DNA from: Sneathia sanguinegens
Lineage (GTDB): Bacteria; Fusobacteriota; Fusobacteriia; Fusobacteriales; Leptotrichiaceae
Length of the DNA: 64,000 nucleotides
Direction: 5' to 3'
Assembly (NCBI RefSeq): GCF_001517935.1
Contig: NZ_LOQF01000002.1
Location: 62,001-126,000 of the forward strand
The notes below the pieces were generated by a model. That model saw only the letters and a program-made list of their open reading frames with translations, did no database searches and was not told the DNA's origin. Both the position numbers and the translations under genes were made by a program. Of this stretch, positions 22,594 through 24,842 are shown piece by piece. Numbering within the stretch: the first letter of the stretch is position 1; each line of letters opens with the position of its first letter.

Positions 22594-22622
22594 ATTATAT
22601 CAAATTATCAAATTTCTGTCAA
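22594..22622 (-). promoter_or_regulatory. consensus promoter of rpsF-ssb-rpsR
   Basis: Minus strand: TTGACA (22617-22622), exactly 17 bp, TATAAT (22594-22599): a perfect vegetative promoter located just behind the YadA-like gene. Confidence 0.85.
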
Positions 22623-22628
22623 ATTATA

Positions 22629-23198
22629 TCATTTTTTATTTATCAATTCTTTTAATTGCTTTATTTGTTCTTTTAAGTCACTCACTTCATTATTTAAATC
22701 TTTAATTTCTTTTTTCATTGAATCAATTGAGTTATTCTTATATTTTCCAAATTGAACTCCTAAACCTAATCCTACTGAAAAATTCCCTTTATGTGTAACT
22801 GAACTTGATAATCTATATGTTACTCTATCATCTGGCGAAACACCACTAACACCTAAAGCAAACGCATGATTTTTACCATAGTAACCATATGCTCCACTTA
22901 TTTGATGGCTATATTTAAAGCTTGAATTTGCCATTCCCAAATTAGCTATTGCTACAGCTGCAGATGTTCCATCATACAACCCACTTTTTTGATTTTCAGC
23001 CTCTTGCATTTCAATATTTTTTACACTCATTTTTTTAAATTCTTCATCTATATATTTTTTTGTATCTTCATTTAAACCTGCATTATGTGGAGTTTGTGAT
23101 CCTCCTTTATTAGGATTTCCTCCATTTCCGTCAAGCAATTGATTTCCAAATGCTAAAATTTGTAATAAAAATAATAATAAAGCTATTTTCTTTTTCAT
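22629..23198 (-). CDS. small YadA-type outer-membrane anchor protein with C-terminal coiled coil
   Basis: 189 aa. Signal peptide MKKKIALLLFLLQILAFG; a Gly/Asn-rich stretch; a short stalk (about residues 42-70); then a YadA-type anchor (about 70-153): ENQKSGLYDGTSAAVAIANL, the strand AYGYYGKNHAFALGVSGV, DDRVTYRLSSSV and GNFSVGLGLGVQFGKY. Such anchors trimerise into a 12-strand barrel. Most end at the last strand; here 36 more residues follow (IDSMKKEIKDLNNEVSDLKE...), a heptad coiled coil that should lie in the periplasm. There is essentially no adhesive passenger. It is 46 bases behind the outer-membrane protein gene and probably shares its switchable promoter. Confidence 0.82.
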   Translation of the reverse strand: MKKKIALLLFLLQILAFGNQLLDGNGGNPNKGGSQTPHNAGLNEDTKKYIDEEFKKMSVKNIEMQEAENQKSGLYDGTSAAVAIANLGMANSSFKYSHQISGAYGYYGKNHAFALGVSGVSPDDRVTYRLSSSVTHKGNFSVGLGLGVQFGKYKNNSIDSMKKEIKDLNNEVSDLKEQIKQLKELINKK

Positions 23199-23244: not shown

Positions 23245-24780
23245 TTATTTCCATTCATATTTCATATTAAAATTCAATTTCAAATATTCATTAATTGCCT
23301 TATCTGATAAATTTCTTTGTTTTTCTTTAGAAATATACTTATATTCTCCTTTAACAAATTTTAAACCTGCTATAGCTTCAGCATTAAGCATCAAATTATT
23401 TGTTACATTATATTTCAATTCTAAACCTACTTCACCTTTTAATCTATGCAAAAAATATTCATTATAGAACTTAGTATAATCATCAAGAGTTCCAATATGC
23501 TTTAAATGTCTATTTAAATATTCAACTCTTATTTTAGGAATTAAAGTCAATTTATCATTAATTTTACCTTCATATGCAGAATAAACATCCAAATCTAGAA
23601 AATTTCCCTTTGAAAAAAAACGTTCATTTCTTAAAGTCTCTACTATTCTAACTTTTGATCCAAGTAAATACTTATTTAAAAATTTATTACTTATTTCTGT
23701 ATTAAGTCCATATATAACTCCATTATTTTTTTCATATGTAACATAGGTGAAAATTGCATTTGCAAATGGCATAACCTTAATTTTAAAATCTTTATTAACA
23801 TATTGTACTTTTAGATATGATTTAAATACACTGCTTGGCTTACGTACATCATCTAAGTTAACACTATTAAAATAAAAATTTTGTGTCATTAATTGATCAT
23901 GTTCTTCACCATTATACGCTTCATATAAATATCCAGTTTCTTCTTCTGTATATAACTTTCTATAATCTCCAATACCAAAATAATTTAGATGTGCATATGG
24001 TTTTAACTTACTATATTTATAGTTCTTTATTGTAGCAAATTTTCCATCTATATTCACATTTTCATTAGCTTTTACACTAAAATCCAATCCTGTTGTAAAA
24101 TACGTATCATTTTCAGAACCCCAATCAGAACCATAATATTCAGGATCATTTATTACTACTTTTTCATTAAAATGATCTATGCCAAAACTTGTTTTAATAT
24201 TTGCTTTATTAGAAATATTAACATCCAAATAAATCTTATTTTGTGTTCTAAGTCTTTGTTCTTTTTCAATATAGCAATTAAGCTTATTATCTAAACCTAA
24301 TTTCACTCCACCTTTAAATTTAAAAGCTACATCTGCACCAAGTTGAACATATTCTCTATAAATATCTCCAAAATCTTCAGATTTAACTTTAGCTTTTAGT
24401 GTTACATCTGCTTTTTCATCTCTTATCATTGCATATTCTAAACTGGCTTTACTAGCTTTAGCAACATTTTGTTTGACATTATACATATAACTATTTAGTT
24501 CATCATAATTATCTGCATATTTAGGATAGTCAATTAATTTTCTTTTTTCCATATCTTTATTTAAAAAACGACTATATCCAATCTTTTTAAAATATAACTC
24601 ATCAAACCCTATATTAGTTTTAAATTTGAACTTACCTTGTTCTACATTCAATCTAATTCCTGCTTTATCAACCTTATTATTTCCATTACTTTCAACATAG
24701 AATTTTCCATATGTTTCTACATAACCCTTTGAAAAACTTACTAATGAAAGTAATAGGCTTAATACACATATTTTTTTCAT
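23245..24780 (-). CDS. putative outer-membrane beta-barrel protein
   Basis: 511 aa. Signal peptide MKKICVLSLLLSLVSFSKG, then strand-rich sequence with alternating polar and hydrophobic residues throughout (YVETYGKFYVESNG; LMLNAEAIAGLKFV) and an aromatic-rich final strand LKLNFNMKYEWK, typical of barrels in fusobacteria. No plug or passenger domain is recognisable and I cannot name a substrate. Its promoter has a nine-G tract between the -35 and -10, so expression is probably phase variable. The small YadA-type gene follows in the same direction. Confidence 0.78.
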   Translation of the reverse strand: MKKICVLSLLLSLVSFSKGYVETYGKFYVESNGNNKVDKAGIRLNVEQGKFKFKTNIGFDELYFKKIGYSRFLNKDMEKRKLIDYPKYADNYDELNSYMYNVKQNVAKASKASLEYAMIRDEKADVTLKAKVKSEDFGDIYREYVQLGADVAFKFKGGVKLGLDNKLNCYIEKEQRLRTQNKIYLDVNISNKANIKTSFGIDHFNEKVVINDPEYYGSDWGSENDTYFTTGLDFSVKANENVNIDGKFATIKNYKYSKLKPYAHLNYFGIGDYRKLYTEEETGYLYEAYNGEEHDQLMTQNFYFNSVNLDDVRKPSSVFKSYLKVQYVNKDFKIKVMPFANAIFTYVTYEKNNGVIYGLNTEISNKFLNKYLLGSKVRIVETLRNERFFSKGNFLDLDVYSAYEGKINDKLTLIPKIRVEYLNRHLKHIGTLDDYTKFYNEYFLHRLKGEVGLELKYNVTNNLMLNAEAIAGLKFVKGEYKYISKEKQRNLSDKAINEYLKLNFNMKYEWK

Positions 24781-24812
24781 AATTCACCTTCATTTTTTTA
24801 ATAGCATTAATA

Positions 24813-24842
24813 ATTGTACCCCCCCCCGCCTTTTTTTGTCAA
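24813..24842 (-). promoter_or_regulatory. promoter with poly-G spacer (putative phase-variable switch)
   Basis: Minus strand: TTGACA (24837-24842), an 18-bp spacer made of six A, GGC and nine G, then TACAAT (24813-24818), about 33 bp before the ATG of the outer-membrane protein gene. Loss of one G would give the optimal 17-bp spacing; gains would weaken the promoter. Confidence 0.8.
24819..24827 (-). repeat. homopolymeric G9 tract in promoter spacer
   Basis: Nine consecutive G on the minus strand (C on plus) in an otherwise extremely AT-rich region; no other G/C run of this length was noticed in the window. Simple G tracts mutate by slipped-strand mispairing. Confidence 0.95.

Follow-up and report, generated by a model that had tools for sequence, protein, structure and literature searches.

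The genome of Sneathia sanguinegens places nine consecutive G residues between the −35 and −10 hexamers of a minus-strand promoter, at positions 24842–24813 of the 64-kb stretch analysed here (the window), which raises the question of whether this tract is a slipping switch for the genes behind it, a constant part of the promoter or an accident of composition. Our answer, held at a probability of roughly 0.87, is that 24842–24813 is a phase-variable (contingency) promoter of a two-gene surface operon, belonging to a set of similar promoters spread across the genome. The promoter and the start of its first gene comprise the following elements.

24837..24842, minus strand: −35 hexamer TTGACA, matching the consensus at 6/6 positions.
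24828..24836, minus strand: AAAAAAGGC, the 9-nt fixed portion of the spacer, read from the sequence.
24819..24827, minus strand: variable part of the spacer, the G9 tract GGGGGGGGG, which abuts the −10 hexamer; assigned from the sequence and genome-wide parallels.
24813..24818, minus strand: −10 hexamer TACAAT, matching the consensus at 5/6 positions.
24785..24790, minus strand: ribosome-binding site AAGGTG, 4 nt 5′ of the ATG (24780), read from the sequence.

The arrangement TTGACA–18 bp–TACAAT scores 11/12 in a consensus promoter scan, confirming the hexamers and the 18-bp spacer with nine G residues proposed by a sequence-only reading of the window. That reading was also right to single out the G9 run (24827–24819) as the only long G/C run: it is the sole run of six or more in the 64 kb, where the GC content is 26% and the next longest run is five. 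The locus has the porA/opc-type anatomy, in which identifiable −35 and −10 hexamers flank a G/C tract of at least about eight bases. An ordinary promoter with a chance G-run would find some support in simulation, where a G/C run of at least nine arose in 4 of 300 order-1 Markov versions of the window (about 1%), and in the frequency of TTGACA/TACAAT-like boxes in AT-rich DNA (31 observed against 22 expected in the consensus scan).

Long G-runs are in excess in the 1.29-Mb genome that carries the window (G000, the host genome), which holds six runs of at least eight, against about 1.1 expected from an order-1 model, and five of at least nine, against 0.2 expected. Tracts C2 (the 24819–24827 site), C17 and C19 form the spacers of promoters scoring 10–11/12, and C8 and C10 lie before surface genes in weaker promoter-like contexts. 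YadA-type genes follow C8, C10 and C17; barrel-like and short YadA-anchor proteins follow C2. Tract C15 (L016) is a misfit to this pattern, being a G8 run three bases 5′ of the ATG of a 219-aa protein with no match in Pfam or NCBIfam. Its position, and the TATAAT that lies also just upstream of the run in C8 (L014), are the observations that favour action of the run after initiation, through reiterative transcription initiated at the G-run or an effect of the 5′ untranslated region, rather than through spacer length. At the window site, however, the −10 hexamer stands directly after the run, so that the start would fall downstream of it, and a perfect TTGACA stands upstream; the same order of box, run and box is kept in the great majority of the runs counted below. 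Post-initiation action is accordingly most unlikely, and a switch acting through spacer length is the preferred reading.

The same anatomy recurs in related genomes. The set examined comprised 106 runs: G-runs of at least eight in the host genome and in the Streptobacillus-like genomes G014, G044 and G005, and of at least nine in the sister genome G001, which, with G000, is Sneathia-like. A run was called a spacer if it belonged to a promoter scoring at least 9/12 whose −10 hexamer started 0–3 nt past the last G. By this call, 93 of the 106 runs, across the five genomes, form the spacer of a σ70-like promoter, against 3.8% of random anchors and 5% of neighbouring upstream anchors; the −35 hexamer is an exact TTGACA in 81 of the 93 and the score a perfect 12/12 in 56. 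Spacers in the set are 15–21 bp long, and tract lengths cluster at 9–11. The sister genome, a single contig of 1,330,224 bp, has 13 runs of at least nine, 12 of which are promoter spacers, and the three Streptobacillus-like genomes have 20–40 long G-runs each, with 20–34 promoter tracts each. In contig G014:C1 (1,662,578 bp), all 22 plus-strand runs lie at 112–629 kb and all 18 minus-strand runs at 902–1650 kb, the G residues always being on one replication strand.

The genes behind these tracts are predominantly surface genes. In the sister genome, each of the 12 promoter tracts stands before a YadA-type trimeric autotransporter gene or operon; the YadA-type gene comes first, or second where a small protein, in most cases secreted, precedes it. 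Most first genes in the Streptobacillus-like genomes encode a signal peptide or the extended N-terminus that characterises these autotransporters (read by eye). Run counts, spacer controls and YadA-type targets together place the arrangement beyond chance and show it to be recurrent at surface-protein loci. A chance run at an ordinary promoter, which accounts neither for 93 of 106 runs lying in spacers against controls of 4–5% nor for the association with YadA-type genes, is strongly disfavoured and very improbable.

An independent check across 98 Fusobacteriota genomes with the pattern TTGA-N{4,9}-G8-N{0,3}-TANNNT gave 36 matches, compared with 2 when the pattern was reversed. Almost all fall within the window's own family, and the pattern is practically absent from Fusobacteriaceae; long G-runs are scarce in most Leptotrichia-like and Fusobacteriaceae genomes. 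Two Leptotrichia-like loci, L067 (G003) and L072 (G037), carry TTGACA-G14/G11-TATAAT before a short open reading frame (ORF) with a double-glycine-type leader (ELMTIDGG), which suggests a switched bacteriocin-like peptide. A scan of the genome_contigs collection (17 pattern bases and 8 gap lengths, over 257 Gb) found at least 114 stretches from many phyla, against a chance estimate of about 240, and was not used as evidence. Contigs of one metagenome-assembled genome (MAG) in each case gave several pattern matches at L136 and L177 (WQXN01, an alphaproteobacterial MAG) and at L189 (a Rickettsiales MAG), and these may represent separate, independent systems of this type.

Tract length differs in 12 of 19 alignable pairs of related promoters, a comparison drawn from one genome per species and in part from draft assemblies, in which homopolymer length is the likeliest error. 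The length-divergent sister promoters are those of the Streptobacillus-like genomes, and they include near-identical promoters: L260 has G11 where L281 and L306 have G10, and L257 has G11 where L290 has G10. Runs of the same kind also lie within N-terminal codons. Tandem paralogues in the small-genome relative G007 have a G9 run in frame and a G10 run out of frame, and of the orthologues L288 and L258 the first (G9) is in frame and the second (G8) out of frame. The G007 genes, at L057 (G007:C1:18000-26000) and L059 (G007:C11:209000-217500), are secreted-protein paralogues with G9–G11 just past the signal peptide, and their tracts are putative intragenic frameshift switches, the frame being kept in some copies and lost in others. 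One family of small secreted proteins, marked by an ITGPRYR motif (L258 and L269 in G014; L288, L289 and L299 in G044), has the G-run in the promoter spacer of some copies and in N-terminal codons of others. In the sister genome, a G9 run at L051 (G001:C1:576603) lies inside a proline-rich coding region (PEPEPEPDPENPS-GGG) whose frame is open for 620 codons, and is a possible intragenic switch.

These observations bear most directly on the alternative that the poly-G spacer serves as a fixed element of the promoter, such as a site for a regulator or a DNA-shape feature setting promoter strength, whose length changes are rare and neutral. Such an element might explain why the run lies directly against the −10 hexamer in nearly every case and why lengths cluster as they do. 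It is hard to square with length differences between promoters with near-identical flanks or, if there is one optimum, with spacers of 15–21 bp, a range that fits promoters frozen in different phases; and inside the codons of related surface genes, in and out of frame, a slippage switch is expected and a promoter element is not. We therefore judge a fixed element improbable, although less so than the two other alternatives. Slippage-driven phase variation is the best reading because G numbers differ between orthologous promoters and because intragenic runs occur in and out of frame; together with genome-wide recurrence and surface-gene targets, these differences support the phase-variable promoter suggested by the sequence-only reading.

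The two limits on the length comparison weigh against phase variation at 24842–24813, as do several other observations. Two of the five promoter-like tracts of the host genome, C8 and C10, have weak boxes, scoring 8/12. In the sister species G001, neither gene of the operon was found beside pfkA or rpsF–ssb in a synteny check; the operon is without an orthologue there, and the 24819–24827 tract thus has no counterpart with which to be compared. In addition, mutS and mutL are intact, so that mismatch-repair loss is rejected as a cause of slippage and does not raise its rate.

The switch at 24842–24813 would work as follows. Slipped-strand mispairing during replication would add G residues to the spacer tract or remove them, so that G8, G9 and G10 would give spacers of 17, 18 and 19 bp and shift both the distance and the mutual rotation of the −35 and −10 hexamers. 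This change would alter the strength of the σ70-type promoter for the operon. Both the 17-bp σ70 consensus spacing and the 17-bp spacer of the neighbouring rpsF promoter suggest that G8 would be at least as strong as G9, with G10 clearly weaker; the order G8 > G9 > G10 predicted by the sequence-only reading would follow from this 17-bp optimum. The meningococcal porA promoter is strongest at 18 bp, stronger than at 17 bp. The sequenced clone, with G9, is probably in an expressed state, since G8 and G9 are predicted to be stronger than G10. We infer that slippage occurs within the species, affects transcription and brings a selective advantage. Independent switching of many tracts would yield a population with many surface combinations.

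The genes behind the promoter and the downstream neighbour that bounds them are the following.

23245..24780, minus strand: 511-aa secreted, beta-amphipathic protein, a probable outer-membrane barrel (ORF, signal peptide and beta-moment).
22629..23198, minus strand: 189-aa short YadA-type anchor protein with a C-terminal coiled coil (ORF and Pfam).
22594..22622, minus strand: the rpsF–ssb genes' own promoter, TTGACA-17-TATAAT, with an extended −10, scoring 12/12 (consensus scan).

The two ORFs are separated by a 46-bp gap in which no terminator-like site was found, and for these reasons the genes are probably co-transcribed; the rpsF–ssb promoter bounds the switched unit on its downstream side. 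The sequence-only reading had placed a barrel protein and a YadA-type anchor behind the promoter. Both ORFs stand, as does the anchor, the 189-aa ORF matching PF03895 YadA_anchor (1.1e-07, 32.2 bits against a cut-off of 22.7) and beginning with a signal peptide (read by eye). It has no YadA_head or YadA_stalk match in Pfam and consists of the anchor only, followed by the C-terminal coiled coil, rather than a head and stalk. The barrel assignment comes from composition: the 511-aa protein has a signal peptide and 126 beta-amphipathic windows, compared with 32 ± 12 in shuffled sequences, and is on that basis a probable outer-membrane barrel. It has no match in NCBIfam or PDB and one sub-threshold match in Pfam, and no homologue was found in 30 relatives, genome_contigs or viral_contigs; a single-sequence AlphaFold2 prediction gave a predicted local distance difference test (pLDDT) score of 29 and no usable fold. 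A C-terminal coiled coil, in many cases with a ELKEIVNKLIRK-like ending, comes after the YadA anchor at 22629–23198 of the window and in the YadA-type proteins of L017, L053 and L055. Classical trimeric autotransporters end with the barrel, unlike these coiled-coil-tailed YadA proteins.

The density of promoter tracts, 12 in one 1.3-Mb genome and 34 in a 1.66-Mb one, bears on the biology of the group as a whole. It is likely that much of the trimeric-autotransporter and surface repertoire of Sneathia-like and Streptobacillus-like bacteria is under independently slipping poly-G spacer promoters, supplemented by intragenic frameshift switches. If so, few known promoter-type contingency systems would match this one in density, and none would have been described earlier in the phylum. 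Streptobacillus is the cause of rat-bite fever. Sneathia has been linked to bacterial vaginosis and preterm birth, and a comparison of 12 Sneathia genomes found adhesins to be strain-variable and suggested immune evasion, mentioning neither phase variation nor homopolymers (PMC13393775). Randomly switching adhesins, if confirmed, would help to explain why adherence and antigen profile differ among strains, and would call for caution before any single adhesin is chosen as a target for diagnosis or vaccination. The listed tract positions let switching be checked in existing reads.

The targets resemble known phase-variable adhesins of other bacteria, namely the trimeric autotransporters Hag/MID, UspA1 and NadA. 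NadA is a trimeric autotransporter adhesin, and the UspA1 tract of Moraxella catarrhalis is a poly-G located outside the −35/−10 interval, in contrast to the Sneathia tract, which lies between the two hexamers. UspA1 is reported to vary in phase at the transcriptional level. M. catarrhalis Hag/MID is a phase-variable trimeric autotransporter whose G tract lies close to the beginning of its ORF (PMC1931440), an arrangement that the intragenic tracts of G007 and of G044/G014 resemble. Transcription of nadA in Neisseria meningitidis is switched by a variable repeat (PMC2791445). That repeat lies 5′ of the promoter and acts together with the NadR repressor, whereas here the repeat is in the spacer. 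Within the phylum, phase variation of the trimeric autotransporters of Fusobacterium nucleatum (CbpF) was suspected but stated to be undemonstrated in 2019 (PMC6346709); the protein class is the same, although the spacer pattern is practically absent from Fusobacteriaceae genomes. No report of phase variation or homopolymers in Sneathia, Streptobacillus or Leptotrichia was found in the open-access literature searched, which is not proof of absence, and two Sneathia genome papers make no mention of phase variation of trimeric autotransporters.

The closest parallel is the porA/opc/fetA group of N. meningitidis, whose −35 and −10 boxes are separated by a homopolymeric tract of G or C that changes their spacing and thereby the expression of outer-membrane proteins (PMC2791445). 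The spacer tract at 24842–24813 has the same placement and is predicted to have the same mechanism, making the locus, on its anatomy, a predicted further case of porA/opc-type promoter-spacer switching. It differs in lying in another phylum and in having mainly trimeric autotransporters and other secreted proteins as targets. The scale also differs: the meningococcal group comprises a handful of genes, whereas the host genome carries 3 strict (5 promoter-like) tracts, its sister 12 and each of the three Streptobacillus-like genomes 20–34.
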